Shown here one piece after another: positions 15,489 through 32,978 of a DNA stretch of 64,000 nucleotides (position 1 is its first letter; each line of letters begins with the position of its first letter). Position numbers and translations under genes: made by a program. Origin of the DNA: Verrucomicrobiota bacterium (GTDB lineage Bacteria; Verrucomicrobiota; Verrucomicrobiia; Chthoniobacterales; UBA10450); the NCBI GenBank assembly GCA_003218135.1, contig QHNQ01000012.1:1-64000 (forward strand), in the 5' to 3' direction. The notes under the pieces were generated by a model. It saw nothing but the letters and a program-made list of their open reading frames with translations, ran no database searches and was not told the DNA's origin.

Positions 15489-17873
15489 ATGTGTCCGGTG
15501 TCGCCACGATATTCTAATTCCTTTGATTCCGATTTCGCGCGCGTGATATCGCGGAAGTTCGAGCATGGGCGTTTTCTCATCGTCGGAGGCGACGCTGGGA
15601 AACTGGAGTCTCAATTTGCCGAGGCGAAACGAGAAGCCGAGGTATGGTCTTACGATGATGTCGCTTCAAAGTTACGTCGTGGTGAATGGACAAGACGCTT
15701 CGAAACCGCGCTGTGGTTCTATTCTTCGGAAAAAAATCAGGACGACATCATTGCGGAGGCGCTCGCGAGCTGCGCAGACGCCGTGGTCTTACTGCCAGGT
15801 CCGGGGGCTGATGCTGGACGACGGCGCCCGCAATTAATTCAGTGCTTCGGTCGCTTTCGGTTTGCGCCCGATTATGAATGTGGCCTGATCGAACTGGATC
15901 CGGGAGCTATATGTCTTAGGGGTCAGCGGGGCGAAGCAGCTGGCGAGCACGCGCTCGCGATCGAGAAGGCTCTCGCGGGAATCACGAATCAGCTGAGTGC
16001 TCTGCAGCGAAAGCTTCAGATCCGTGAAGCGGAATTGAAAGAGGCGCATCGCCACGTCGCTGGACTAGAACAGAAACTTTTAAAACTCAAAGAATACAGG
16101 CGCGAGTTGAAGTTGCTGAAAAAGGAGAGGCGACTTCTGCGCAGCTCCGCCGAGCGTCGGGTGGGTCAGGTGCTACTCGCGCCGTATCGGATTCCGGAAA
16201 AGCTGGCCAAAACAGTGTGGAAAAAGGTGCGAAAGCCAAAGTCTGCTACAGCAAGCGAATATCAAAAGTGGTTTGAGCGACATCGTGCCAGTGTGCAGGA
16301 CTTGGAGCGCATGCGCGATGAGGCGCGCCTATTCGCCTCACGACCGTTGATTAGCGTGATCACGCCAGTTTTTAATACGCCCTTGCAATGGCTTGAGGAA
16401 GCTGTCCAATCGATGCTCTCGCAAGTATATGAAAACTGGGAGCTCGTGTTAATCGATGACGGATCCACAAACAACGAGTTGCTCCATCTGCTGCCGCGCC
16501 TTGCCGCGCGCGACCGGCGCATCGTAATTGCTAGTCTCGGAAAACACGGAGGTATTTCTGCTGCGTCAAACCATGGACTCGCGCTAGCCCGCGGAGAGTG
16601 GGTGGCTTTTCTTGATCATGATGATCTCCTCGAACCTGATGCACTTTTCCAAAATGTAAGTGTGCTTCAGAAAGATTCCTGCGTCGATATGATCTACTCC
16701 GATGAAGACAAACTCACTGAGGATGGCTTGGGCTCGCCAATGCTGAAACCGGACTGGTCGCCCGATTTCTTTTTATCTTGCAACTATTTATGTCATCTGA
16801 TTTTTTTGCGCCGACAGCTTATCTGCGATGTTGGGAGTTTTCGTTCCGATTTGGATGGCTCGCAGGATTACGATCTTCTGCTGCGTATTACCGAGCGCAC
16901 CGAGCGCATCGTGCACATTCCGCGGGTGTTGTATCATTGGCGGCGCAGCCCAAGCTCCAGCGCTGACAGCGTTCGCCAAAAACCTGGGCAACTCGAAGCC
17001 TCGCGACTTGCAATCGAAGGTCGTCTGCAGCGTCGCCGTGAACTCGCTCATGTCACGGTAGATTGGCGGACACACGTTTTCCATGTCCGACGCGAACTAT
17101 TGGAGGCGAAGAAGATCTCGATTGTCATCCAAAGCGCACGCCACGCGGAGCAACTTAAACGTTGCATTGAAAGTCTAACTCCGAGAACGAGCTATCCCAG
17201 TTACGAGATCATCATTGTTCGACAGGGAAACGAACCTTTCGCGCAGTTACCATGCCGCGTGGTGCACGCACCCGATGCATCCAACGTCGCTGCGCTAAAC
17301 AATCTCGCGGTACAACAGACCGATAACTCATGGCTTTTGTTCCTGGATGCTGGCATCGAACCAATACAAGACGATTGGCTAACAATTATGGCCGAGCACG
17401 TGCAGCGACCAGAGGTCGGCGCAGTCGGTGCGCGGTTAGTGAATTCCAACGGCACAATCGAGCACGCCGGGATCGTCCTTGGCGTTAATGGAATTGCGCA
17501 GCCGGCTTTTGGCGGCTTTCCAGCGGAAGATCCCGGCGTAAACCGTCAATTGCAAATGGTTCGCAACTACAGCGCTGTTTCTGGCGCATGCCTGTTGGTG
17601 CGCCGCGAGGTTTTTCAAGAAGTTGGCGGATTCGATTCGACACTCTCCGAAGCGTTTGCGGACATCGATTTCTGTCTCAAGATACGGCGGGCTGGTTACC
17701 TCATTCTTTACACGCCGCTTGCCAAACTTTATTGGGAAGCACCGGTACCCGACAAGATCGACCTCAGTGGTGAAGCGATCATGCGCCAACGCTGGCCTGA
17801 TGTTCTAGAGCGCGATCCTTATTACAACCCAAATCTCTCCCGCGAGCGCGCCGATTTCTCTGTAGGCAAGTAG
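15489..17873 (+). CDS. Large glycosyltransferase with coiled coil and two GT2 domains
   Basis: LISVITPVFNTPLQWLEEAVQSMLSQVYENWELVLIDDGST..., then a second GT-A domain KKISIVIQSARHAEQLKRCIESL...; C-term RWPDVLERDPYYNPNLSRERADFSVGK. Confidence 0.9.
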   Translation: MCPVSPRYSNSFDSDFARVISRKFEHGRFLIVGGDAGKLESQFAEAKREAEVWSYDDVASKLRRGEWTRRFETALWFYSSEKNQDDIIAEALASCADAVVLLPGPGADAGRRRPQLIQCFGRFRFAPDYECGLIELDPGAICLRGQRGEAAGEHALAIEKALAGITNQLSALQRKLQIREAELKEAHRHVAGLEQKLLKLKEYRRELKLLKKERRLLRSSAERRVGQVLLAPYRIPEKLAKTVWKKVRKPKSATASEYQKWFERHRASVQDLERMRDEARLFASRPLISVITPVFNTPLQWLEEAVQSMLSQVYENWELVLIDDGSTNNELLHLLPRLAARDRRIVIASLGKHGGISAASNHGLALARGEWVAFLDHDDLLEPDALFQNVSVLQKDSCVDMIYSDEDKLTEDGLGSPMLKPDWSPDFFLSCNYLCHLIFLRRQLICDVGSFRSDLDGSQDYDLLLRITERTERIVHIPRVLYHWRRSPSSSADSVRQKPGQLEASRLAIEGRLQRRRELAHVTVDWRTHVFHVRRELLEAKKISIVIQSARHAEQLKRCIESLTPRTSYPSYEIIIVRQGNEPFAQLPCRVVHAPDASNVAALNNLAVQQTDNSWLLFLDAGIEPIQDDWLTIMAEHVQRPEVGAVGARLVNSNGTIEHAGIVLGVNGIAQPAFGGFPAEDPGVNRQLQMVRNYSAVSGACLLVRREVFQEVGGFDSTLSEAFADIDFCLKIRRAGYLILYTPLAKLYWEAPVPDKIDLSGEAIMRQRWPDVLERDPYYNPNLSRERADFSVGK

Positions 17874-17916
17874 CCGCGGTTCGCAGGCGTCGAACTTAGC
17901 TTAGGCTTCGACAAGA

Positions 17917-19020
17917 TCACTGACTGCCGGACAGGTCGTACACTTCCACCAAGGCAGCTCCGACCTCGATGTTTACTGCACGCACAATCGCCGTGTAGTT
18001 GCCCGTTGGCAGATCTGCAATGATGGCAGACTCCAGTGCGTCACTCGGAGCGTGACCGCTATTGATGATATCCTGAACTTGGTCGTGGGTGATGATTCCA
18101 CCGATGACTGTGTGCTGCCAGTCGTTGTTAAAGCCAATCAAAGCTCCGGTACCATCGTGCAGTTCCAATGTGGGATCAGCCAATGGCGTCGGCACCCCAT
18201 ATTGACTGAGTTCCGGACCAATGGCCCGTATAATGACTCTCTTTGTTCCTGTGCCTTGGACGATGAATCCGCCGATCATCACGTTGTCACCATTCTGCAC
18301 AAAGCTGCGCGTACTGATGTTGCTAAGAATTGAAGTGGTGTCGGTGCCAATGTCGTACACTTCCACCAGAGCAATGCCCGTGGTCTCATTTACTCCGCGT
18401 ACGATCGCGGTGTAGTTACCAGGTGAAAGATCTCCAATGATGGCAGATTCCCTCGCATCCGCCGGAGCGTGGCCGCTGTTCTGAATATCCTGGACCTGAT
18501 CGTGGGTGATAATGCCGCCAATGATCGTAGTCTGCCAGTTATCATTACGACCAATCAAAGCTCCTGTGCCATCGTGCAGTTCTAAAGTTGGATCAGCCAT
18601 CGCATTCGGAACGCCATATTGGCTGAGCTCAGGGCCAATGGCGCGTATGATCACTCGTTTTGTCCCTGGGCCTTGGACAATGAAACCGCCGATCATCAGG
18701 TTATCGCCCGTTTGAACAAAACTGCGAGCGCTGAGGTTGGAGAGTGTCGCTGCTTCCGGTGTTGCCGCCAGGTCTTGCCTGGTCGTGTTGACCACGATGC
18801 TGGTCGCAAGGCGGGCGGGCACAGAGGCCGCAGGCTCATATGCGAGAGCAGTGAGCGCCAAACCTACCGCAGCCGTGCAAGCAAGAACACTGCCGAGCAC
18901 GCGGAGATTAAAAAACCCGCCTTCACGGATGCTGCGGTGGGCGCGTACAGATTGGGAGGGAAATTTTTTCTTCACGTAAAATGTTTCGTGGTGCCTCGCG
19001 CTGCTGGATGTCTTGAACAA
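17917..19020 (-). CDS. Secreted protein with two copies of a ~125-aa repeat domain (FVQTGDNVMIGGFIVQG...ADPTLELHDGTGALI...NYTAIVRGVN)
   Basis: Signal-like N-term; two internal homologous repeats (approx. 17929-18320 and 18349-18740). Confidence 0.8.
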   Translation of the reverse strand: MFKTSSSARHHETFYVKKKFPSQSVRAHRSIREGGFFNLRVLGSVLACTAAVGLALTALAYEPAASVPARLATSIVVNTTRQDLAATPEAATLSNLSARSFVQTGDNLMIGGFIVQGPGTKRVIIRAIGPELSQYGVPNAMADPTLELHDGTGALIGRNDNWQTTIIGGIITHDQVQDIQNSGHAPADARESAIIGDLSPGNYTAIVRGVNETTGIALVEVYDIGTDTTSILSNISTRSFVQNGDNVMIGGFIVQGTGTKRVIIRAIGPELSQYGVPTPLADPTLELHDGTGALIGFNNDWQHTVIGGIITHDQVQDIINSGHAPSDALESAIIADLPTGNYTAIVRAVNIEVGAALVEVYDLSGSQ

Positions 19021-19138: not shown

Positions 19139-19306
19139 ACGATACTCGCAAGGTTGTCTTACCACTGGGCTGGAGTTCGCCGCGAAGACGTCGAACCCTC
19201 CGAAGTCCTAACGAAACGCGACCGTTGGGCCGAGGTGCTCAAACACGATCCGTACTACAACCCAAATCTTTCTCGCGAACACGCTGACTTCTCGATAGGC
19301 GAATAG
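19139..19306 (+). pseudogene. Remnant of a GT2-family glycosyltransferase C-terminus
   Basis: Frame reads ...TILARLSYHWAGVRREDVEPSEVLTKRDRWAEVLKHDPYYNPNLSREHADFSIGE*, matching the C-term of the 15489-17873 protein (RWPDVLERDPYYNPNLSRERADFSVGK*); no upstream GT2 body. Confidence 0.8.
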
Positions 19307-19418
19307 CGAAAGCTTTACCAGTCTTGTAATAGCGGTTTTGACACGGCTCCAACACAGCGCCGTGGTCGAATCAACCAAAAGTCGTCAGAGTGAGCGACGA
19401 TAAAATGTGCGCGAGTAG

Positions 19419-21185
19419 TTATTGATGCAGATCGTACACTTCCGCCAGAGCAACTCCGGTGGTGCTGTTTACACCACGCACGATCGCGGTGTAGTTGCCC
19501 GCTGGCAAGTCCGCAATGATCGCAGATTCGCTCGAGTCAGCGGGAGCGTGGCCGCTGTTCATGATATCCTGAACTTGGTCCTGAGTGATAATTCCGCCGA
19601 TGATTGTAGTCTGCCAGTTATCATTAGAGGCAATCAAAGTTCCGGGGCCGTCGTGCAGTTCCAGCGTCGGATTAGCCAAGGGATTCGGTACGCCATACTG
19701 ACTGAGCTCCGGACCGATGGCGCGTATGATCACTCTCTTTGTTTCTGTGCCTTGGACAATGAAACCACCAATCATCACGTTGTCGCCGGTCTGCACAAAG
19801 CTGCGGGTACTGATGTTGCCAAGAATTGAACTGGTACCGGCGCCGATGTCGTACACCTCCACTAAAGCAACTCCAGTGGTATTATTTACGCCACGCACGA
19901 TCGCCGTATAGTTACCGGGTGGCAGGTCTGCAATGATTGCAGATTCCCTTGCGTCTCCGGGAGCGTGGCCGCTGTCCTGAATCTCCTGAACTTGATCGTG
20001 GGTGATAATGCCGCCAAGGATCGTAGTCTGCCAGTTATCATTGGAGCCAATCAAGGCTCCGGTGCCGTCGTGCAGTTCCAATGTCGGATCAGCCAACGGA
20101 TTCGGAACACCATACTGGCCGAGCTCAGGGCCAATGGCGCGAATGATCACGCGCTTTGTGCCGGTGCCTTGGACAATGAACCCCCCAATCATCACGTTGT
20201 CGCCCGTCTGGACAAACGCGCGTGTTGAGATGTTGCCCAGGTTTGCAGCTGCAGTTTCAACCGTATAGATTTGGTTCGTATTAGAAGCGGAGCCCCCGGG
20301 GCCGACTCCGCCACCTGGGATATAGATTTTGTTGCCGATCGCCGATGCCCAGATCCCGTGCCGACCAGCAGGCATGTTGGGTAGCTGACGCCAACTATTA
20401 GTAGCAGGATTATAGACTTCCACCTCTGCATGCACAACGAAATCCAGGACGTCCTCCCCGCCGAAAACCCAAAGCTCATTATCCACCACCGCGGCGGCAA
20501 GCCCGGAACGAGCAGTTGGCATCGGTGGACGAGTCGACCACAGATCAGTCTGCGGATCATAAACCTCAAGGGCGTCTGTTGAACCTGAAAAATCGCTAGC
20601 CCGTCCACCTACAACATAAAATTTCCCTTCGATCACACCGCCAGCTGTGTGATTGCGCGGGACGCTCATGGGAGCCTTGACTGTCCATGTATTTGCGACC
20701 GGATCGTACACCTCCAGTTCGCGCTGGCTCGGAGTACCCGTGCCGCCGGCGACATAAATCTTATTATCGATCACCCCGACTGCCGCAGTCTGGCTGTGGA
20801 CGTAGTGACTGGAAGCTCTCGCAGCCCAGGAGTTGGTGTTCTGATTGTAAACAAACAGCTCGCCTCCTCCGGCACCAAAACTATAAAGGTCTCCTCCTGC
20901 CACAGCCGCGCTGTTGTGATTAACTCCATAGGGAAGCGGATGCGCCAAGGTCCATGTGTCTGTAGTTGGATAATAGACTAGCACCGTGTCCGTGGAATGC
21001 CCCTCTGCATCGAAACCACCGAGGACGTACACATTTCCATTTAGCGCCCCGGTGGCGAGTTCCTGTCGGGGGCCAGGCATTTGGGCGCCTAGTTGCCAGG
21101 TATAACCATTTTGAGTCCGGCCAATGCTGACAAGTATGAGGCACAAGAGCATGCCAAAGACTGGGCCGCGAAAATTCTGGCGCAC
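19419..21185 (-). CDS. Secreted Kelch-repeat protein with two copies of the same ~125-aa C-terminal repeat domain
   Basis: Kelch motifs (NKIYVAGGTG...LEVYDPVANTWTVKAPM etc.), then two FVQTGDNVMIGGFIVQG... repeats; GTG start at 21185 precedes a signal peptide. Confidence 0.82.
   Translation of the reverse strand: MRQNFRGPVFGMLLCLILVSIGRTQNGYTWQLGAQMPGPRQELATGALNGNVYVLGGFDAEGHSTDTVLVYYPTTDTWTLAHPLPYGVNHNSAAVAGGDLYSFGAGGGELFVYNQNTNSWAARASSHYVHSQTAAVGVIDNKIYVAGGTGTPSQRELEVYDPVANTWTVKAPMSVPRNHTAGGVIEGKFYVVGGRASDFSGSTDALEVYDPQTDLWSTRPPMPTARSGLAAAVVDNELWVFGGEDVLDFVVHAEVEVYNPATNSWRQLPNMPAGRHGIWASAIGNKIYIPGGGVGPGGSASNTNQIYTVETAAANLGNISTRAFVQTGDNVMIGGFIVQGTGTKRVIIRAIGPELGQYGVPNPLADPTLELHDGTGALIGSNDNWQTTILGGIITHDQVQEIQDSGHAPGDARESAIIADLPPGNYTAIVRGVNNTTGVALVEVYDIGAGTSSILGNISTRSFVQTGDNVMIGGFIVQGTETKRVIIRAIGPELSQYGVPNPLANPTLELHDGPGTLIASNDNWQTTIIGGIITQDQVQDIMNSGHAPADSSESAIIADLPAGNYTAIVRGVNSTTGVALAEVYDLHQ
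19985..20210 (-). repeat. Arm of a near-identical inverted repeat (partner 31115-31340)
   Basis: Reverse complement matches 31115-31340 with about 4 mismatches by eye. Confidence 0.85.
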
Positions 21186-21576
21186 TTTGTTCTCCCAGTA
21201 TGTTCTACAGCAAACAGACGCCGAGGTTCCCAATAATTTGCTTGGAACGGCAGCAAAGGAGACGGCGCGCAAGTCGATTCATCGAGGGAGCGTCGGGATA
21301 CGAAGCGGAGAGACCACGCGAAAAGTTTTTTTTATGTCGAGCGGTTTTCGCTCGAATATCTTACGCCGACCGCTCCAATGCGGGCGTGTTGCTTGGGACC
21401 TCGAAGAAATCCGGCGCGCTGGCTGCGGATCAGCAGCTGGTGCTTACATGCCGGTCAGCCAATCGAGCGCATTCGCGCTGGGATCACGCCCTGCAGCTTA
21501 CCGCTTCGGTCGCAATTTTGCCGTCCCGTAGTCCCCGGCTTGCTTCGTAAGCTGATTTTCCTAACTTACGTGGCTC

Positions 21577-22401
21577 ATGCTACCCGAGCGAACCGAAGCA
21601 GTGTTGGCAGCGGTGCTCGCATGTCCAGTTTGCAGCGGTGACCTCCGTCACCACTCAACAAGTGTCACGTGTGTGCAGTGCAGCGCCGTTTTCAAACTTC
21701 ACGGACATATACCTGTTTTTCTTAAGGAGCCAGTGACGATTCCGCCGGAAAACCACAGGAGCAACCCGATTGGCGCGGAATTCGAGACAATTCTCCGCGA
21801 GGGAAAAGATTTCGTTCTCCACATTGGCGCAGGAGTTTCGGCGCAGCGCTATCCCAACTGCATTGAATTCGAGCGTCGGCCCTTCCGCCACACTGATGTT
21901 ATAGGCGACGCGCACTCATTGCCGTTTCGCGCCGGCAGCTTTGATCGCGTATTTGCCTTCAATGTTTTCGAGCATCTGGCTGAGCCGCAAAAAGCGGCGG
22001 CTGAAATCCTACGCGTGCTTAAGCCTGGCGGATCGGTCGCCATTCACAGCGCCTTTCTGCAGGCCGTACACGAAGCGCCGCACCACTATTTTAACGCCAC
22101 CGAGTTCGGCCTTCGCAAGTGGTTTTCCAGTTTCGAAGTTGAGCGCTGCCATGTAAGTGGAAACTTCGCTCCGGGTATGATGCTCGCGTATCTAATGTCT
22201 AGCGTGATCAACACGGCCAAAGAGGGAGGCGCCGCTTTGGACAACGTGATGCGCTTAAGGAACACCACCCTGGGGGAATGGGCCGATCTCTGGGCAGGAA
22301 CTGGACACCACCCGGGTGGCTTCGAGATTCTACAGAGCTTGCCGCAGTCAGCTCAAAGCAAGATCGCCGCGGGGTTCGAGCTAGTCGCGCGTAAGCGATA
22401 G
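21577..22401 (+). CDS. Class I SAM methyltransferase with N-terminal Trm112-like zinc-binding segment
   Basis: CPVCSGDLRHHSTSVTCVQCSAVF then FNVFEHLAEPQKAAAEILRVLKPGGSVAIHS. Confidence 0.85.
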   Translation: MLPERTEAVLAAVLACPVCSGDLRHHSTSVTCVQCSAVFKLHGHIPVFLKEPVTIPPENHRSNPIGAEFETILREGKDFVLHIGAGVSAQRYPNCIEFERRPFRHTDVIGDAHSLPFRAGSFDRVFAFNVFEHLAEPQKAAAEILRVLKPGGSVAIHSAFLQAVHEAPHHYFNATEFGLRKWFSSFEVERCHVSGNFAPGMMLAYLMSSVINTAKEGGAALDNVMRLRNTTLGEWADLWAGTGHHPGGFEILQSLPQSAQSKIAAGFELVARKR

Positions 22402-22412
22402 ATTAACAGCAC

Positions 22413-25355
22413 GTGCCTCAGTCCCTCGTTTCAAGTAAGGCGTTGGCCGTGAACGACAATTTAATCTTCTGGTTGGATGCTCCACAAACGTGGAACAGAA
22501 AAACGCGATGGGTAACCCTGGCAGGGTGGTGTGTGTGGAGAAGTGGCCCTCCATTGCAAGCAATCCGGGCGACGATTGGGGGACACGTTTTTGAAGCGCG
22601 AGTCTTCCACGATCGCCACGATGTTATTCAGCACTGCGGCGTGAGCGCTGATCAAGTCCGCTGCGGCTTTTCACTTGAAGTCAGATTGCCACGAGGAGAG
22701 TGGCCGTTGCGCATCGAGGCGAGTAATGGCGCAGATGGCTATTGCATCGTTTGGCAGAAGAACGTCGTTGGACCGATCTTCCTTTCCGCCGATGAACGCC
22801 GTCAGCGTCGCGGGAAGACGCAAGTTGCCGCTGCCGATCGTTTCCATTGGTGGCTTGATCGGCCGTTGAATTGGGACAAACTGGAACGCGAGCTTCCAAT
22901 CTGCGGCTGGTGCATCGATCGAGTTGAAGAACGAATAACCGGATTCCGCGCACGAGTGGGCCGCCAAATTTTTCGCGGCACTTATGGCATACAACGAAGG
23001 GATCTGCGGGGAAGCTTCCCCGACTCCCCGTATGCGCATTGTGCAGGTTTCGCTGCGACAGCGAAGTTGCCGCTTGGCCGCAGCACCCTCGCATTGGAAG
23101 TGAGGGATGTTCGCGGCGAGTGGCGCTCATTCCTCCAACGGCAAGTCATAAGGCAATGTAGAGCCGCGAGAAAAGATCGTCCGCCACTTGAGGACGCAGA
23201 GCTCTTCGACGTCGATCGGCGGGACATCGTATCACGATTTGCTTTTTGGCTTGAACCTCGCTGTGACTGGTCGCGGCTACCTAGAAGCCAGCGTCTCGTG
23301 GGTTGGTGTGTGGCTCTCCACGGAAAACCGATCGAAGCAGTGCGCGCGCGTATCGGCCACCACAAATGGGAGGCCCAGACGGGAATCAAGCGTCCGGAGG
23401 TAAAGGCAGCATACCCCGACGTTATCGGAGCATTGCACAGCGGCTTCTCGGTCACCATAAATCCCCCGCGGGGAAGAAACTTACTTCTGCTGGAAGCGTG
23501 TTCCGACCAGGTGTGGGAGGCTTTTTTCGCTTATCGGATTTATCGCCCGTTTTTTTGGCGACGTGGGGAGAATCGTTTTGGGAAAGCGAACCGTTACGAA
23601 TATTGGCTCCGCCTGTACGATAGACTGGACGCCCGGGATCGCTCGGCAATCCGGCGCCACATCCGCAGCTTCGACAAAAGACCGCGCTTTTCTATATTGA
23701 TACCGTGCTACAATTCTGATCTGCGTTTCCTCCGCGCCGCAATACGCTCGGTGCGAGGACAACTTTATCCCGACTGGGAAATCTGCGCGGTCGATGATGC
23801 TTCAGAAGATCCAGCCGTTTGGCGCCTGTTGCAAAGCGCCGCGCAGCGTGAACCGCGGATGAAAATCCACCGACGCCGGGAGCGCGGTCATATTTCGGCT
23901 GCTTCGAACGACGCGCTCGATATGGCCACCGGCGATTTCATCGTCCTGCTCGATCACGACGACGAGTTGGCGCTACATGCTCTCTACTTCGCGGCTCTAG
24001 CGATTAATCGGCAGCCAGATCTGAAGCTGATTTATGGTGATGAAGATAAAATCGACGAGAACGGCCGCCGATTTAGCCCTTATTTCAAGTCACAGTGGAA
24101 TCCCGATCTCTTTCTGGTGCAAAACTACGCGGCCCACCCGGCAATTCTGCATGCCGGGTTGGCCCGGGACGCGCGCGGATTTGATTCCGAGTACGATGGA
24201 GCGCAGGACCACGAATTCCTGCTGCGGTGCGTCGAGCTAATTGATCAATCGCAAATCCAACGTATCCCGTGGCTACTCTATCACTGGCGCGCGACGCCCC
24301 ACAGCACAGCGGAGGCAGTGTCCGCAAAACCGTATGCGCTCGACGCGCGCGCCCGAGCGGTGGAAGAGTATCTGCAGAGACGCCGCATTGCTGCGGTAGT
24401 TTCACGGCAAGGAGAGTTTCAGCGAGTGCGATACGCAATACCTGTGCAGATGGCCTCCATCATTATTCCGACTCGCGATCAAGCCAGCCTGCTCGAGAAA
24501 TGTCTGCGCAGCATTAAAGAAAAAACCGACTACGAATTCTATGAATTTGTCATCGTCGATAACAGCAGCTCCGAGCCATCGACCCGTGAATTCCTTCAAG
24601 AGGTTGCAAAAGACGAGCGCATTCGCGTCATCTCCGTCCCCGGCGAATTCAACTACAGTAAGCTTTGCAACTGCGGCGCGGCTGCTGCGCGTGGCCATGT
24701 TTTACTGCTCTTGAACAATGATATCGAAGTCATTGACCCCGGTTGGTTATCCGAGTTAATGAGCCAGGTAACGCGACCAGAAGTCGGTGTGGTAGGGGCG
24801 AGCTTATGGTTTCCAGATGGGCAATTACAACACGCGGGCATTGTTCTAAGTCCAGAGCGCATTGGCAACTATGCTTACTTCCGGCAGCGCCGCGGGGATA
24901 CCGGCTATTTTTCGCAACTGCAACTCGTTCGAAACGTAGCTGCCATCACTGGCGCCTGCCTTGCTGTGCGGGCAGAAGTGTATGCACAGGTCGGCGGGCT
25001 GAATGAGCGCGATCTCAGCATTGCATTCAACGACATCGATTTTTGCCTGCGTGTACGTGAATTGAACCTAAGGGTGGTGTGGACGCCACATGCTGAACTC
25101 ATCCATCGCGAATCAAGTTCACGTGGGCTCGAAGATACTGAGGAGAAACAGGGTCGATTTCACCAAGAACTTCGATACATGCAGCAACGCTGGCGCGAAC
25201 CCTTGCGCGATGATCCTTTTTACAACCCGAATCTCGATCTCACCGACGAGCTGTTCACCCTAGCGTTCCCACCCCGCTTGCACGCGCCATGGAAGGATTT
25301 TGATCGCGCTAATAAAGCGACGGGAAAAGGGGGAAGTCCTAATAATGGCGACTGA
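22413..25355 (+). CDS. Giant glycosyltransferase: three tandem ~100-aa N-terminal domains + two GT2 domains
   Basis: Repeats begin FWLDAPQTWNRK..., WWLDRPLNWDKL..., FWLEPRCDWSRL...; GT2: FSILIPCYNSDLRFLRAAIRSVRGQLYPDWEICAVDDAS and ASIIIPTRDQASLLEKCLRSI. Confidence 0.9.
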   Translation: MPQSLVSSKALAVNDNLIFWLDAPQTWNRKTRWVTLAGWCVWRSGPPLQAIRATIGGHVFEARVFHDRHDVIQHCGVSADQVRCGFSLEVRLPRGEWPLRIEASNGADGYCIVWQKNVVGPIFLSADERRQRRGKTQVAAADRFHWWLDRPLNWDKLERELPICGWCIDRVEERITGFRARVGRQIFRGTYGIQRRDLRGSFPDSPYAHCAGFAATAKLPLGRSTLALEVRDVRGEWRSFLQRQVIRQCRAARKDRPPLEDAELFDVDRRDIVSRFAFWLEPRCDWSRLPRSQRLVGWCVALHGKPIEAVRARIGHHKWEAQTGIKRPEVKAAYPDVIGALHSGFSVTINPPRGRNLLLLEACSDQVWEAFFAYRIYRPFFWRRGENRFGKANRYEYWLRLYDRLDARDRSAIRRHIRSFDKRPRFSILIPCYNSDLRFLRAAIRSVRGQLYPDWEICAVDDASEDPAVWRLLQSAAQREPRMKIHRRRERGHISAASNDALDMATGDFIVLLDHDDELALHALYFAALAINRQPDLKLIYGDEDKIDENGRRFSPYFKSQWNPDLFLVQNYAAHPAILHAGLARDARGFDSEYDGAQDHEFLLRCVELIDQSQIQRIPWLLYHWRATPHSTAEAVSAKPYALDARARAVEEYLQRRRIAAVVSRQGEFQRVRYAIPVQMASIIIPTRDQASLLEKCLRSIKEKTDYEFYEFVIVDNSSSEPSTREFLQEVAKDERIRVISVPGEFNYSKLCNCGAAAARGHVLLLLNNDIEVIDPGWLSELMSQVTRPEVGVVGASLWFPDGQLQHAGIVLSPERIGNYAYFRQRRGDTGYFSQLQLVRNVAAITGACLAVRAEVYAQVGGLNERDLSIAFNDIDFCLRVRELNLRVVWTPHAELIHRESSSRGLEDTEEKQGRFHQELRYMQQRWREPLRDDPFYNPNLDLTDELFTLAFPPRLHAPWKDFDRANKATGKGGSPNNGD

Positions 25356-27969
25356 AAGTAGAACAGCGGAAGAATTTGCGTTTGGATTTGACGAGCCGTT
25401 CGAGGCCCTCGTTTTCAGCCGGACGCGACCGGTAAACGGCTGGCTGGTCGACACGAGCGGGGAACCGATCCACGGTATTCGGGTAATTGCGACTAAGCGC
25501 CTGCGGCCACACCGTGTCGTCAGGGCGCGACGCAAGCGTAGCCGACCCGATATCGGGGCCGCTTTCCCAGCGATACCCGCAGCCGAATCCAGTGGATTCT
25601 ATGTCAATGTTCCTCTGCGCACTGGGGGTAATCGCCTGCTGTTCCAAGTACAAGATGCGCGAAACTGCTGGCGCACTTTTTTCACTGCCGAGATCAGGGC
25701 GGCGCCGCTCGAGTTTCTTCTGCGGCTCGGTTTGACCAATCTCCACGAGCACCTACGCACCCGGCGTCAGTATCGGCGAGATGGCTCTGTCGCTCGTTCC
25801 AATCGCCGCGTGCGCCAGGTGCAGGTGCAAGACGAAAGCGCGCCTGTTCAACTTCGGCGCGTCATCGTCTATGCCACCGCCAACGCGAATCTTTTTATTC
25901 GCGAGTTAGGTGAACTCGTTGTGGCTGGATTCACTGAGCTAGGCCTCGAGGCGGCGCTGCTTCTTGATCGAAAACCGGGACTGCCGAGCGACGACTTGGT
26001 TCAAATAGTGCTGACTCCACACGAATATTACAATCTGTTCCTACTGGAAACCGTTTCGCCGAGAGAAGCCCGCGAGCTGACTCGAAACGCGGTTCTCCTC
26101 TGCACCGAGCAACCGGATACCAGCTGGTTTCGGCAGAATCTTCGCTGGGCATGCTACGCGCGCGCCGTCGCTGACATTAACGCTCTGGGTGTCAGGGCGT
26201 ATCGCCAGCTGGGAATCAGAACTCATCACCTCGAGCTTGGTTTTCACGAAATTCTTGCCAGCCGCGATCAACAGCCGCTTCTCGAGAGGCACGTGGACAT
26301 CACCTTTCTCGGGTCGCTCACTCCGCGGCGCGATCTTTTCTTCTCCCGCCACGCCAGCTTCTTCAGCAAATACAATTGTCATCTGCGGTTTGTGCCGCTC
26401 GGCTTTGCGAAGACCGAATCCTCCCGCAGCTATCTCTCCACCGGTGAACGTAACGCCTTACTTGCGAACTCCCGCATACTGCTCAACCTGCACTATTCCG
26501 GTCAGCGGTATTTCGAGTGGCACCGCATGCTGCTCGGTTTCGCCAATGGCTGCTGCGTTATCAGCGAAACGAGCGTGGGTTTTGGCCCGCTAATTCCCAA
26601 TCGACACTTCGTAATGGTGGAAAAGGACGAGTTGATCGATGCGTGCCGATTTTACCTGGAGCATCCGAGCGAGTGCTCGCGCATTGCCAAAGCGGGTCAC
26701 GATTTTGTGCGCGATTCGCTTCGCCAATCGCACGGCTGCCGGAAGTTCTTGCTGGATTTGACGCGCGACGAGACTTCGAATTTTAACATGCAGCCGGCTG
26801 AGTTTGGCGATGATCCTGCTCCAGCCGATCTACCGCAGGCACTGGCTAAATCGCTCAAGCAAGCTGCCCGCGGCAACCTCTGGAAGGCGCTTGCGAGCGA
26901 CCTAAGAAAAATGCTCTCTCATTCGCAGAAGACAATGGCCCACCCCTCACCGGAAATGCCGAGCATTTTGACGAAAAGTCTGAGTGAAGCACGCTCCGGC
27001 GTCATCGAAAAACGCGCGGCCTACCACCAGCGCTTGCAAGAGCAGGCCAGCCGACGAAAACGTGGAGAGAAAGTCTGGACATTGCATGAGAATGCGGCGT
27101 TCAGTGACTCGCTGGCCCCGCAGATTTCGGTAATCATTACGCTCTACAATTACGAGCAATTCATCGAAGGATGTGCGGAATCGATCGGTCGGGCTGCGGC
27201 TCAGCTTTCGGCTCCAATTGAGATCGTGATCGTCGATGATGCGTCCACCGATGGTTCGTTGGCAAGGGCGCGCAGGGTGCAGATGGGGCTCGGGCGACCG
27301 GTGCGGATTGTCCAGAAGTACCTGAACACTGGCCTGGCCGATGCACGCAACATCGGCACGCAAATTGCGCGCGCCCCGTACGTGTTCATGATGGATGCGG
27401 ACAACCTCATTACCCCGCGTGCGCTACGGGTGCTGTTTGAAGAGATCGAGCGCGGACAGCATGCCGCCGCGTATAGTTTGCTCTGTCGGTTTCGTGGCTC
27501 GCCCGAAAACGCGCTTGGCCTTCTGTCCTACTACGATTGGGATCCGGAGATTCTCGTGCAGAGCCCCTATATCGACGCCATGGCGCTATTCCGGCGCGCC
27601 ACCTTGCTCGAGCTTGGCGGTTATGATTGTACCCTGAGCCAGATCGGTTGGTTCGGTTGGGAAGACTATGAAATGTGGCTGCGGTTTGCCGCGCGCGGGT
27701 TCTCCGTTGGCTTCGTACCCAACACCCTCTGTTTCTATCGCCATCACGACAAATCGATGAGCAACACCACCAATCTGTTCGAGGAGGAGCTGGTGCGCGT
27801 TTTACAAGAGCGCTACCAGTCCCTGGTAGATCGCTATCCTGCCCGCAAGAAAATCTTTGGAATGCACCGGCACAAACTCCGCGCGCTCGCAGAGCGCGAC
27901 GGCGCAAACGAGATCAACGCACCCGATGCGCGTCGCGACGCCGGTAAGGAATTTCGGCTCAAAACTTAG
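25345..27969 (+). CDS. Multidomain glycosyltransferase: one N-terminal ~100-aa domain + CgeB/GT1-like middle + C-terminal GT2
   Basis: FAFGFDEPFEALVFSRTRPVNGWLVDTSGEPIHGIRV...; middle RILLNLHYSGQRYFEWHRMLLGFANGCCVISE; C-term ISVIITLYNYEQFIEGCAESIGRA...IVIVDDASTDGS. Confidence 0.87.
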   Translation: MATESRTAEEFAFGFDEPFEALVFSRTRPVNGWLVDTSGEPIHGIRVIATKRLRPHRVVRARRKRSRPDIGAAFPAIPAAESSGFYVNVPLRTGGNRLLFQVQDARNCWRTFFTAEIRAAPLEFLLRLGLTNLHEHLRTRRQYRRDGSVARSNRRVRQVQVQDESAPVQLRRVIVYATANANLFIRELGELVVAGFTELGLEAALLLDRKPGLPSDDLVQIVLTPHEYYNLFLLETVSPREARELTRNAVLLCTEQPDTSWFRQNLRWACYARAVADINALGVRAYRQLGIRTHHLELGFHEILASRDQQPLLERHVDITFLGSLTPRRDLFFSRHASFFSKYNCHLRFVPLGFAKTESSRSYLSTGERNALLANSRILLNLHYSGQRYFEWHRMLLGFANGCCVISETSVGFGPLIPNRHFVMVEKDELIDACRFYLEHPSECSRIAKAGHDFVRDSLRQSHGCRKFLLDLTRDETSNFNMQPAEFGDDPAPADLPQALAKSLKQAARGNLWKALASDLRKMLSHSQKTMAHPSPEMPSILTKSLSEARSGVIEKRAAYHQRLQEQASRRKRGEKVWTLHENAAFSDSLAPQISVIITLYNYEQFIEGCAESIGRAAAQLSAPIEIVIVDDASTDGSLARARRVQMGLGRPVRIVQKYLNTGLADARNIGTQIARAPYVFMMDADNLITPRALRVLFEEIERGQHAAAYSLLCRFRGSPENALGLLSYYDWDPEILVQSPYIDAMALFRRATLLELGGYDCTLSQIGWFGWEDYEMWLRFAARGFSVGFVPNTLCFYRHHDKSMSNTTNLFEEELVRVLQERYQSLVDRYPARKKIFGMHRHKLRALAERDGANEINAPDARRDAGKEFRLKT

Positions 27970-28105
27970 ATCACCATAAGTCGCGGTCGCATTACGGTGA
28001 GAGTAAAAGTGAAATCCCGGCAAGCCGCCCGCAAAAGCGCCGCTGTCGAATTCCTCGTTCAAAGCGCTTGCAGGACAATCACCGTGTTGGATTGATAAGG
28101 CGAAC

Positions 28106-29122
28106 GTGCATCTGAGTTCGATTGACAAAATGACGGCTTTTCGCCGTAGATACCTCGATTCGCAGTCATCTCAGCCGCTTGTTATTGTCGATCTCGGCAG
28201 TCAGGATATTCGGGGAAGTTATCGAGCAATATTTGATCGTCCTCCGTGGCGATATGTGGGCGTTGATATCGTGCCGGGTAAGAATGTCGAACTAGTTATC
28301 CGCGATCCCTATAACTGGCGGGAACTAAAGTCTAATAGCGTTGACGTACTGATCTCCGGCCAAACGTTTGAGCACACCGAGTTTTTTTGGGAGACCGCCG
28401 GGGAGATAGAGCGAATCCTGAAACCAAACGGTCTTTGTTGTATTATCGCTCCTTGGACTGGACCTGTTCACCGATATCCCCTCGACTGCTGGCGGATGAA
28501 CTGTGATGGAATGCTCGCCATCGCCCGATATGCCGGCCTCGAAGTATTGGAAGCCTGGAGTCAAACAGGTGATTCACCCAAGTACGACGCGGACAGCAAT
28601 CAATGGCACGAGTCGATTCTTATCGTACGAAAGCGTGAGGGCGGGCAGAAGTTCCGTGAGCGGATTTACCGCTGGTCAAAGCGCCATGTTCGTCCACCTC
28701 TCAAAAATATCGACTGCTGGATACAGGTTTTCTTTGCGGCCGATCAAACGTACCGGGAAGAGCAATCGGTTTGTTCATTCCTGGATGGCGATCAGTGGCG
28801 GAAAGTTTGGATTGGTCTACCAGCAGACGCACAAGTTCGTAGTGTGCGGATCGACTTTTCCGGGCCGCGGCTTCGTCTGATCGAACTCGCATCGCTCCGT
28901 GTTTCCGACGAGAACCGAAATTTCTTGGACTTCCCCGCACAAAATGCTTGGGACGAAATCCACCTGCAGGGTGATGCCGAACGTTTGGAATCCGCTGGCG
29001 ACCTGCGCGTTAAAACCGAAGGCATTGATCCGCAGCTGCATCTCCCCGCCTTCAAAGAAGCGAGAGAAGATTTGCCCCTTTTTGTGGAAATGCGGGCGCG
29101 CGCGAAATGTGAATCAAGCTAA
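28106..29122 (+). CDS. SAM-dependent methyltransferase domain protein with C-terminal extension
   Basis: VIVDLGSQDIRGSYRAIF...YVGVDIVPGKNVELVIRDPYNW...ERILKPNGLCCIIAPW. Confidence 0.8.
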   Translation: MHLSSIDKMTAFRRRYLDSQSSQPLVIVDLGSQDIRGSYRAIFDRPPWRYVGVDIVPGKNVELVIRDPYNWRELKSNSVDVLISGQTFEHTEFFWETAGEIERILKPNGLCCIIAPWTGPVHRYPLDCWRMNCDGMLAIARYAGLEVLEAWSQTGDSPKYDADSNQWHESILIVRKREGGQKFRERIYRWSKRHVRPPLKNIDCWIQVFFAADQTYREEQSVCSFLDGDQWRKVWIGLPADAQVRSVRIDFSGPRLRLIELASLRVSDENRNFLDFPAQNAWDEIHLQGDAERLESAGDLRVKTEGIDPQLHLPAFKEAREDLPLFVEMRARAKCESS

Positions 29123-29210
29123 TGTTTCGGTTACCGGTGCTGGGAAACTCAGAGCGGTGCGGAGCGCCCAAAACCGCAGAGCTCCTGGCTGACGCTCTTA
29201 TCAATACCGC

Positions 29211-29310
29211 TGTCATGTTGAGCGAAGCGAAACATCTTCGTCTATTGTCGTCGCGGAACAGGCCAGAGGTGATCAAAGATTCGTCGCTACGCTCAGATGA
29301 GACTTGTCAG
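29211..29310. repeat. MITE-like imperfect inverted repeat
   Basis: Left arm tgtcatgttgagcgaagcgaaa (29211-29232), right arm ttcgtcgctacgctcagatgagac (29280-29303), imperfect reverse complements. Confidence 0.75.
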
Positions 29311-29330
29311 GTTCTAAACTATTGGGCGTT

Positions 29331-30017
29331 TCACGCCGCCGTCTCGCGTTTTACCGCCGAAGCCCGGATCCAGTCATCATCCGTACGAATTCGCACGTCG
29401 CCGAAGCCCGCGCGGCTCAGGTACGTCTCGATCTCTTGTGGCGTGGAGTTCTGCGTCATGTGGGGCGGACGGTTCGTGGCCGAAAACGCACGATGGATTT
29501 CGAACACTTTCCAGCCTCCATCGGAGCAAAGATTTATGTTATCGACATAAATTCGGCCGTTGGGCCGTAACACACGAAATGCCTCCAAAACATAATTGTA
29601 CCGGTCCCAGGGCTCGAGATGCATGAAGACCACTGTGCAATAAACAACATCCACAGAAGCATCCGCAACGCCGCTCAGATTATATCCGGATATCTCCTTT
29701 AGCTCGAGGTTGTCCAAACCTCGTAGTCGCTTCGCTGCGAGCGCGAGCATATTCGAGGCGACATCGCACCCGATCCATTTTCGGCAGAGCGGCGCCACCA
29801 ACTTGCCGACGCGTCCGATCCCGCACCCGATTTCAAGAATAACATCATCCTTTCTAATACCCACGCTTTCCTGAAGAAACTTCAAAGTTTGCTCACCAGT
29901 CGATCGCAGCGCGTCTTCTTCCGTTACACCGATGACATGTAATTTTGCCTGATCTTCGGTGGTTGAAAGCGCCGACCAAACCTTCTTGTATTCAGAGCGC
30001 GCCGGCTGCTGTTCCAT
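29331..30017 (-). CDS. Class I SAM-dependent methyltransferase
   Basis: DVILEIGCGIGRVGKLVAPLC...WIGCDVASNML...EAFRVLRPNGRIYVDNIN. Confidence 0.88.
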   Translation of the reverse strand: MEQQPARSEYKKVWSALSTTEDQAKLHVIGVTEEDALRSTGEQTLKFLQESVGIRKDDVILEIGCGIGRVGKLVAPLCRKWIGCDVASNMLALAAKRLRGLDNLELKEISGYNLSGVADASVDVVYCTVVFMHLEPWDRYNYVLEAFRVLRPNGRIYVDNINLCSDGGWKVFEIHRAFSATNRPPHMTQNSTPQEIETYLSRAGFGDVRIRTDDDWIRASAVKRETAA

Positions 30018-30313
30018 CTGGCGTTAATTAGCTCATCATCCCAAGGCGTCAACGTTGCCAAATCACCGGAAGTGTTCAGAGGACCGGCGTTCACGCTGTC
30101 TTGTTTTGCGTGCCAGCATGTTTTGTTGACAGGTTGTGGCGCCGGTTCTAGTTTCGGCGCTCGGTTCGGTAAATTAGGGTTTTACGAAATTGAGGGCTCT
30201 TCTTGCTACTGTTGTTTCTTGGTAAGCGGTACCAGTGCTCATACGCTCATGACAGCGATTACTCCAGCGAATACGGCTACGTCTAGCCCTGCTTTCGAAC
30301 ACAGAACAGCGAC

Positions 30314-31903
30314 ATGAAAAAGCAAATTCGTCCGGCCGTTAAAGCCTATCTGATTCGAGGGGCATTTTACCTGGTTCTGCTGCTTGGTGTCTCGGCAATT
30401 CCATTCGCGCTGGCGCAACGAAACGTGACCAACAGAGGTACCGCCAAGCCGACGTCAAGCCCACCTGTTGTTCCTCAGTTCAGCAGTGGCCGCCTTGGCG
30501 CACGCTTCCTCGTCGCTCCGTCACCACCGAGAGCGCCGCAGACAGTTCTGTACGATCAGTACGACAACTCTGGACAGGATGTTACCCTGTCAGCCACGTT
30601 CACCGATTTTCCTGCGTCCAATGCCGATCTGGCGGACGACTTTGTCGTGCCGGCGGGTCAAACTTGGAATGTGCAGTCGATCGACGCGGATGGCGTGTAT
30701 TTTAATGGGTCGGGACCAGCCATCGATTGGAATGTATTTTTTTATGCAGATAATGCTGGATTTCCTGGCGCGCGGGTTTACAGCGCGACTCATCAGCCGG
30801 ACGTGCAAAACGGCAGCACGTTCACCATAAACCTGCCTACACCTGCTTTGCTGAATCCTGGTACCTACTGGGTCGAGATCCAAGCCAACATGACCTACGG
30901 CACCCAGGGCGAATGGGGCTGGAGCAATCGCACAGTCACGGCGAATAACCCTGCCGCCTGGCAGAATCCTGGTGGTGGCCTTGGAGTCTGCCCGAGTTGG
31001 AGCCGTCGGGGAGCAACTTGCGGCATAGACCCGTCGGAAGCCGATCAAATGTTCCGGCTCAACGGGACAATAGCGGGTGCGCAGCTTGGGAACATCTCCA
31101 CGCGCACCTTTGTTCAGACGGGCGACAACGTGATGATTGGGGGGTTCATTGTCCAAGGAACCGGCACAAAGCGCGTGATCATTCGCGCCATTGGCCCTGA
31201 GCTCGGCCAGTATGGTGTTCCGAATCCGTTGGCTGATCCGACATTGGAACTGCACGACGGCACCGGAGCTTTGATTGGCTCCAATGATAACTGGCAGACT
31301 ACGATCATTGGCGGCATTATCACCCACGATCAAGTCCAGGATATCATGAATAGCGGCCTGGCTCCCGGAGACGCGAGGGAATCTGCCATCATCGCAGACC
31401 TTCCACCGGGCAGTTACACGGCGATTGTGCGCGGCGTAAACAACACTACCGGAGTTGCTCTCGTAGAAGTGTACAACCTTAGCACCAACACCGATTCAAT
31501 TCTTCACAACATCAGTACCCGCAGCTTTGTTCAGACAGGCGACAACGTGATAATTGGTGGCTTCTTTGTTCAGGGATCCACGCCAAGGCGAGTAATCATA
31601 CGCGCCATTGGCCCTGAGCTCGGTCAATACGGTGTTCAGGATCCATTGGCTGATCCAACATTAGAACTGCACGATACTACCGGGGCCTTGATTGCCCGCA
31701 ATGATAACTGGCGGACTACGATCATCGGCGGGATTATCACCCAGGACCAAGTGCAGGATATTATCAACAGCGGACTGGCCCCGGGAGATCCAAACGAGTC
31801 GGCGATCATTGCAGATCTGCCAGTAGGCAACTACACCGCGATCGTACGCGGCGTAAACAACACCATCGGTGTTGCTCTCGCGGAAGTATACGATCTGAAT
31901 TAA
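30314..31903 (+). CDS. Secreted protein with two copies of the ~125-aa repeat domain
   Basis: Signal-like N-term; unique mid region (VLYDQYDNSGQDVTLSATFTDFPASNADLADDFVVPAGQTWNVQSIDADG); two FVQTGDNVMIGGFIVQG-type repeats. Confidence 0.82.
   Translation: MKKQIRPAVKAYLIRGAFYLVLLLGVSAIPFALAQRNVTNRGTAKPTSSPPVVPQFSSGRLGARFLVAPSPPRAPQTVLYDQYDNSGQDVTLSATFTDFPASNADLADDFVVPAGQTWNVQSIDADGVYFNGSGPAIDWNVFFYADNAGFPGARVYSATHQPDVQNGSTFTINLPTPALLNPGTYWVEIQANMTYGTQGEWGWSNRTVTANNPAAWQNPGGGLGVCPSWSRRGATCGIDPSEADQMFRLNGTIAGAQLGNISTRTFVQTGDNVMIGGFIVQGTGTKRVIIRAIGPELGQYGVPNPLADPTLELHDGTGALIGSNDNWQTTIIGGIITHDQVQDIMNSGLAPGDARESAIIADLPPGSYTAIVRGVNNTTGVALVEVYNLSTNTDSILHNISTRSFVQTGDNVIIGGFFVQGSTPRRVIIRAIGPELGQYGVQDPLADPTLELHDTTGALIARNDNWRTTIIGGIITQDQVQDIINSGLAPGDPNESAIIADLPVGNYTAIVRGVNNTIGVALAEVYDLN
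31115..31340 (+). repeat. Arm of a near-identical inverted repeat (partner 19985-20210)
   Basis: See partner; cagacgggcgacaacgtgatgattggggggttcattgtccaagg... shared. Confidence 0.85.
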
Positions 31904-32119
31904 TCTGGCTGCCGAACCCCCACAATTCTGTCACCACTTCGAAACGCTGGCTGCTGTTGCATTGTGCGTTGATTGACCATCACGTTGGTATTCGATCTCG
32001 CGTAACCAGCTGACGATCACAGCGCTTCAATCATGAAGCGCAAGCCGCGCTCCTCAATTCCTCCCGGAGCGGTGGTGGGCTTCGTACGTCAGTGGCGCGG
32101 GAGGGGAGCAAATGGCGTC

Positions 32120-32212
32120 AATCGTCTGAGACCGGATCATTTGTTACAGCGCAATCCATAGTACAACAGAAATCTTGCTCGCGAACACGCCGATTTACCG
32201 TTAGGCATATAG
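32120..32212 (+). pseudogene. Second, more degenerate remnant of a GT2 glycosyltransferase C-terminus
   Basis: Frame reads RPDHLLQRNP*YNRNLAREHADLPLGI* (compare RDPYYNPNLSRERADFSVGK*); internal stop at 32159-32161. Confidence 0.7.
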
Positions 32213-32237
32213 GCCGCTTCACAACATCGACATTCAC

Positions 32238-32978
32238 ATGAACAGGAAAAATTTGTGGATTGGTCTGAACGAGCCAGCGCGAAACGCGCTGGCTGTTCGC
32301 GATTATAAAACTGGCTCGTTCGCCCAACGGCTCCGGGGTTCGGGAGTCGAAGCCAGCGAAGTAACGAGAGTTAACCGAGGCCAGTCCGACGTGAAGAGAA
32401 TCTGGATCCCTGGCGTGGAAATTTTTGCGCGAAAGATTTTTGCGCAGCTGCACCGAGGCAGTTTTGGCGAATTTGTTCGAGAGAACGACGGCGTTCCAGC
32501 AAAGATCGGATTTTGGCCGAAACAATGGTCCGGCGCGCGCATGTTCGTCGGCACGGCGAAAGGCTTTCACGTTCATCCGCCAAGCATTCCTGCGGACACA
32601 ACACCGGAAAAATGGCACCGCCGATTGTTCGTTCGACAGCCGGAAAAATATTCATTACGTCGCTACGACAACGAGCAATGGGACATGATGTTTTTTTTGC
32701 AGGGTCGCGCTGAGATCATCTTGTGCGACATCCGCGCGGGGCTCCCCCGGCGGATAATGCGATTCTTTGTCGATGGTGATAATCATCGTGGCAGCAACAA
32801 CGTCGGCGTTGTAATACCGCCAGGCGTGGCGCACGCCATTCGCGCTGAAGGCGCGGAAGACGTAATCATGGTTTACGGAACCAGTACCGTTTTTCATCCT
32901 GAATTCGAGGGGCGCATCGCTAGCGAAGTTGAGAGCGCAGAGTTGCCCGAATCATGGCCGAGATTTTTAGAGTTGTAG
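32238..32978 (+). CDS. RmlC-like cupin / dTDP-4-dehydrorhamnose 3,5-epimerase family protein
   Basis: VRENDGVPAKIGFWPKQWSGARMFVGTAKGFHVHPPSIP...WHRRLFVRQPEKYSLRRYDNEQWDMMFFLQGRAEIILCDIR...NVGVVIPPGVAHAIRAEG. Confidence 0.72.
   Translation: MNRKNLWIGLNEPARNALAVRDYKTGSFAQRLRGSGVEASEVTRVNRGQSDVKRIWIPGVEIFARKIFAQLHRGSFGEFVRENDGVPAKIGFWPKQWSGARMFVGTAKGFHVHPPSIPADTTPEKWHRRLFVRQPEKYSLRRYDNEQWDMMFFLQGRAEIILCDIRAGLPRRIMRFFVDGDNHRGSNNVGVVIPPGVAHAIRAEGAEDVIMVYGTSTVFHPEFEGRIASEVESAELPESWPRFLEL

Follow-up and report, generated by a model that had tools for sequence, protein, structure and literature searches.

We examined a 64,000-nucleotide stretch of a Verrucomicrobiota genome (the window; contig QHNQ01000012.1, positions 1 to 64,000, assembly GCA_003218135.1) in which two near-identical DNA segments, in inverted orientation, lie within genes for predicted secreted proteins on either side of a block of glycosyltransferase and methyltransferase genes. 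In our assessment (probability roughly 0.8), the two segments owe their near-identity to recent ectopic gene conversion between paralogous surface-protein genes that flank a variable glycosyltransferase/methyltransferase island. The window's genome is a metagenome-assembled genome (MAG) of 2.75 Mb in 214 contigs, 87% complete; its size and its relatives suggest a Udaeobacter-like bacterium.

A probable conversion tract between two surface-protein genes

The left copy of the tract (19985-20210, minus strand) lies in gene k, which encodes a kelch protein, and the right copy (31115-31340, plus strand) lies in gene a, which encodes a choice-of-anchor-R-like protein. In both predicted secreted proteins, the tract falls in the first of two tandem ~134-residue C-terminal domains (here called tail domains), which repeat with a period of 417 nt. 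The first-pass annotation had estimated about 4 mismatches in about 226 bp, and the count is exactly 4 in 226 (98.2% identity), three synonymous and one nonsynonymous, with a longest exact inverted run of 110 bp. The alignment of the window against itself that the annotation had proposed recovered the inverted pair and placed the tract inside a longer repeat (19421-20252 versus 31073-31904), which spans 832 nt and is 84% identical. The tract edge is sharp: just past 31340, identity drops to ~80% inside the same domain. The other edge lies ~30 bp from the domain start.

The window's genome has 13 matches to the tail domain on four contigs. Alignment of 11 copies from this genome gave 55 pairs and 193 polymorphic sites. 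Pairwise identities were 74-88%, except between the two copies that a single gene on contig C169 carries (94%) and for the C159_2/C79_2 pair (91%); the earlier statement that the other domain copies differ far more than the two segments do therefore holds for most copies. For the first tail domains of genes k and a (k1 and a1), identity at third positions reaches 0.96 within the tract and 0.57 across the remainder of the domain; other pairs have a median of 0.64 over the same columns. A GENECONV-style permutation test ranked the k1/a1 fragment first of the 55 pairs, with a global P<0.001 when mismatches were allowed (0 of 1000 shuffles reached it) and a P of 0.001 when they were not. The test rejects chance and thereby identifies a gene-conversion tract. 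At a background divergence of 20%, the binomial probability of at most 4 mismatches in 226 positions is ~6e-17. The C169 gene holds another significant fragment (global P=0.008), shared by its own two copies, so conversion has happened more than once in this genome. All 11 copies of the window's genome group in one clade when 54 copies from five genomes are placed in a tree, consistent with concerted evolution or recent expansion.

We infer both the mechanism and the direction of conversion: homologous recombination, presumably RecA-type, would have copied ~226 bp of the first domain between genes k and a. The annotation had named recent duplication and gene conversion together. The tract, the permutation test and the third positions favor conversion, and duplication does not stand, as the 98% identity is confined to 226 bp. 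A recent duplication of the whole gene end, whether tandem or inverted, would agree with the two-domain architecture shared by k, a and a third gene, p (see below), but it is contradicted by the sharp edge, with identity of ~80% directly beside the tract in the same domain. We rejected it because the high identity is restricted to the 226 bp, and regard it as extremely unlikely.

Several considerations weigh against gene conversion between the two resident genes. The permutation test takes sites as independent, the sequences fix neither the direction nor the date of conversion, and one copy of the tract may have come from a related strain by import. In addition, the assembly is a MAG, and the assembly of short reads could go wrong at an exact inverted run of 110 bp. 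An artefact could have arisen if reads from one copy filled both, or if the contig was misjoined at the exact repeat. Such an error would suit a draft genome in 214 contigs with an exact inverted run of this length, and the opposite orientation of the block would resemble relatives more closely. However, the four scattered differences keep the tract copies apart and, together with the distinct flanks, speak against collapsed copies; an intact open reading frame (ORF) surrounds each copy, and a comparable conversion tract is present on a different contig. We consider an artefact improbable.

A variable island between conserved genes

The 20-31 kb block belongs to a ~14.3-kb insertion (17.9-32.2 kb) between a conserved glycosyltransferase gene, GT15489 (15489-17873, plus strand), on the left and the conserved gene 32238 (32238-32978, plus strand; weak Polysacc_synt_C match below the curated cutoff) on the right. 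We regard the segment as an insertion because the flanking genes are adjacent in relatives. Most relatives are without the insertion, and GT15489 adjoins 32238 in many of them (e.g. G018, G041, G043, G047, G015, G001, G016 and G019). Gene 32238 is present in 31 of the 35 genomes of the genus that were compared. GT15489 has lost its middle in G044 and G011, where only the first and last codons persist between conserved neighbors (L127:15387-15533; L142), and is missing with no clear remnant in G039, G010 and G040.

The GT15489 3' end occurs three times in the window: at the left edge of the island (17784-17874), inside it between p and k (19217-19307, plus strand) and, decayed, at its right edge upstream of 32238 (32123-32213, plus strand). 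The internal relic is 79% identical to the G048 gene and 75% identical to the window's own, a sequence relationship that suggests import through recombination with a related species. The 3'-end relics had raised the idea of site-specific integration at the GT15489 3' end, which we rejected: no integrase was seen in the window and the relics differ in sequence. For the same reasons we prefer recombination with imported DNA. Gain, loss and rearrangement between species mark the site between GT15489 and 32238.

The gene content of the island partly corrects the earlier description of a glycosyltransferase/methyltransferase block between two surface genes. The product of the minus-strand surface gene is a kelch beta-propeller protein; the block has three methyltransferase genes, one of them oriented opposite to the rest; and a third gene with the same tail, gene p, adjoins the left repeat. 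Gene k (19419-21272, minus strand) encodes a signal-like N-terminus, a Pfam Kelch propeller and two tandem tail domains (19839-20240 and 19422-19823, by a hidden Markov model of the domain). Gene a (30314-31903, plus strand) encodes a choice-of-anchor-R-like N-terminal part (a weak match, below cutoff) and tandem tail domains at 31085-31486 and 31502-31900. Gene p (17917-19020, minus strand) encodes a short N-terminal part followed by tandem tail domains at 18343-18744 and 17926-18327.

Between k and a, four genes lie on the plus strand: the methyltransferase gene MT21577 (21577-22401; Pfam Methyltransf_11), the glycosyltransferase genes GT22413 (22413-25355) and GT25300 (25300-27969), and the methyltransferase gene MT28106 (28106-29122; Pfam). 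GT22413 and GT25300 and their homologues are also called GT22 and GT25 below. GT22413 encodes N-terminal repeats of an unnamed ~110-residue domain and then two Pfam GT2 domains, and GT25300 encodes Glyco_trans_1_2 and GT2 glycosyltransferase domains (Pfam). The unnamed domain occurs as repeats in the N-terminal region of GT22413 (22413-23600) and once in GT25300 (25351-25695); it has no Pfam match and is limited to five genomes of the genus. The third methyltransferase gene, MT29331 (29331-30017, minus strand), which the earlier block description did not include, is divergent from gene a, and its protein is 83-86% identical to the product of the gene upstream of GT22 in G018, G023 and G048. 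A near full-length homologue of MT21577 occurs within the genus in G042 only (57%). G018 carries a broken MT21577-like remnant (L068:2577-2951) between its tail gene and its MT29331 homologue.

A hairpin-like interspersed repeat of ~90 bp (29208-29297) has 38 matches in the window's genome, and the ORF that runs over it (29122-29550) is probably not a gene. An Rfam scan of the window and a plasmid search with the block each returned no match.

Comparison with relatives, a check the annotation had proposed for inversion of the block, showed that orientation and order at this site vary between species; the breakpoints may lie elsewhere than at these particular repeats. The GT25300 homologue of G023 (L095) and G048 (L250) is convergent into GT15489, opposite to the window. 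In G042 (L141) the MT21577 homologue is near 32238, pointing away, beside a GT15489 3' fragment, and thus at the opposite end relative to the window. The same pairing can end in either conversion or crossover, and the k and a repeats could act as inversion substrates. A crossover at the inverted repeats might have flipped the block in this lineage, or might still flip it in the population: an inversion of the window's block at the tract would turn GT25 and GT22 leftward and bring MT21577 and k beside 32238, as in relatives. The flipped form would nevertheless place MT29331 far to the left, yet its homologues sit upstream of GT22 in G018, G023 and G048, and the relic beside k, being closer to another species' allele, also fits import already in the present orientation. 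If short reads had been misjoined across the 110-bp exact repeat during assembly, the result would likewise resemble an inversion. The proposal that homologous recombination inverted the block is thus possible given the repeats and the orientation differences, and the placement of MT29331 leaves us doubtful of it.

The annotation had further proposed that inversion would swap the C-terminal domains of the two surface proteins in a possible phase-variation arrangement. The distal part of the tail would indeed be exchanged, but the exchanged ends belong to the same family (the second domains of k and a are 80% identical in DNA) and the class of protein would be unchanged. The inverted orientation and the high identity would suit a phase-variation switch, and Verrucomicrobiota provide known cases of capsule switching by inversion (Akkermansia cps1; PMC13343947). 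That switch, however, is an invertible element beside cps1 that turns the capsule on or off. Here, judging from the gene layout, k and a each have their promoter and N-terminal part within the block, so flipping should change neither expression nor protein class. An inverton combines inverted repeats, present here (832 nt, 84%), with an inversion that alters expression or protein identity, which the gene layout does not provide. Pfam scans of window genes, small ORFs excepted, detected no recombinase of the invertase or integrase kind; homologous recombination would need no site-specific recombinase. An ON/OFF switch at the block is unlikely, and with near-equivalent tails exchanged, a phase-variation arrangement is unsupported and, in our view, very unlikely.

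A paired C-terminal tail domain

The tail domain that carries the tract is nearly always paired. Exactly two copies are present in 106 of 114 domain-carrying ORFs (78 loci, nearly all in Verrucomicrobia MAGs), and the domains occupy the very C-terminal end in 106 of the 114. Judged by the tail domain, the nearest named relatives are MAGs of Verrucomicrobia and Chthoniobacterales, a number of them from soil series. The tail is joined to unrelated N-terminal parts, including kelch, plastocyanin-like, fn3 and arylsulfotransferase domains and others. It falls outside the Pfam and NCBIfam families (all NCBIfam matches of the tail proteins were below cutoff), and no described Verrucomicrobia tail domain of this kind was found in the open-access literature. 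In the palsa_1413 MAG, a tail gene (L194:8687-10795) occupies the same conserved neighborhood, between homologues of 33037 and 35918.

AlphaFold2 models of the tail form a confident beta-sandwich, with a predicted local distance difference test (pLDDT) score of 93.7 for the pair and 94.3 for the single domain. In Foldseek searches of the PDB, the best matches to the single-domain model include pre-peptidase C-terminal (PPC) domains and collagen-binding domains of bacterial collagenases, with target-normalised template-modelling (TM) scores of 0.56-0.70. The tandem model gave low-TM matches only, and the single-domain model was the clearer of the two. On this basis the tail domain is predicted to be a PPC-like beta-sandwich. 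It shares the predicted fold with the PPC and collagenase collagen-binding domains of PDB entries 5sv5 and 1nqj (target-normalised TM scores of 0.67 and 0.70, respectively) but differs from them in sequence (13-15% identity), in having no Pfam match, the PPC family included, and in being nearly always paired. When PDB sequences were searched with the tail profile, the only matches were short ones to kelch proteins, both designed and natural.

The kelch orthologues of G016 (L082:9364-11049; 75% identical) and G006 (L083:10365-11477; split) have at the C-terminus a repeat region unrelated to the tail (ADFN-DGHPDYVL repeats), and the G012 orthologue (L087:730-1770) stops after the propeller and has no tail. 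Because kelch orthologues carry another C-terminus or none, the tail is modular over longer times.

Co-occurrence with a glycosyltransferase pair and comparison with known systems

Across the 35 genomes of the genus, those with at least four copies of the tail domain are exactly the five with the GT22413/GT25300 pair. Strong homologues of GT25300 occur in these five only (G000, G012, G018, G023 and G048). Strong matches to the N-terminal part of GT22413 are restricted to G000, G018, G023 and G048; G012 has a weak match inside its GT25 homologue, along with GT22-type C-terminal pieces. The exact coincidence of five in 35 has P ~3e-6 (1 over 35-choose-5) if genomes are independent, which they are not; in a tree of the flanking genes the five pair-bearing genomes fall in several separate lineages. 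One or two domain copies or fragments are present without the glycosyltransferase pair in G042, G046 and G022. The pairing is not universal, because G036 and G037, outside the genus, have GT22-like genes without the domain.

In G000, G018 and G048 the GT22 operon has a tail gene upstream of it in divergent orientation; G023 has the same arrangement with one additional gene in between, and in G027 the tail gene is directly before GT22 in the same direction. No other non-tail neighbor recurs as often across the 78 tail loci and the window as the two-GT2 glycosyltransferase family (7 genomes). This co-occurrence suggests, at the level of gene content, a glycan-dependent surface-display system. 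As a working hypothesis drawn from these genomic associations, the tail pair would keep a variety of proteins at the cell surface by way of a glycan that the island operon makes. More broadly, and tentatively, the tail may be an undescribed Verrucomicrobiota surface-display module whose proteins depend on the glycan of the linked operon, by binding or by modification, with the two gained and lost together and recombination between tails keeping the copies alike.

Gene conversion between surface-protein tails is ordinary. The tract described here also points to a paired tail domain that is uncatalogued but widespread among soil Verrucomicrobiota, bacteria known chiefly through metagenomes, and to one specific glycan locus that travels with it. 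If the pairing is functional, it would explain the surface retention of many unrelated secreted proteins and would supply a testable partner locus.

Like ectopic conversion among bacterial surface-protein paralogues in general, the k/a tract is a high-identity segment within paralogous domains, synonymous sites included. Here, by contrast, no silent cassettes or dedicated system were seen, and the sequence converted is the shared tail and not a variable region. Surface-polysaccharide loci with exchangeable glycosyltransferase cassettes are of a known kind, and the island resembles them in its conserved flanks and variable glycosyltransferase/methyltransferase content; it differs in also carrying linked genes for tail-bearing secreted proteins. 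The Akkermansia cps1 inverton, an invertible element beside a capsule locus that switches its expression (PMC13343947), shares with the window a Verrucomicrobiota host, inverted repeats and a surface polysaccharide locus, whereas here an 11-kb block is bounded by coding repeats and gives no sign of a switch. The GlyGly-CTERM/rhombosortase system (PMC3237569) is alike in that many proteins share a C-terminal region whose presence from genome to genome follows one partner locus. The candidate system described here, in which no protease or sortase was identified, differs in having two folded ~134-residue domains as the shared region and a glycosyltransferase pair as the partner.

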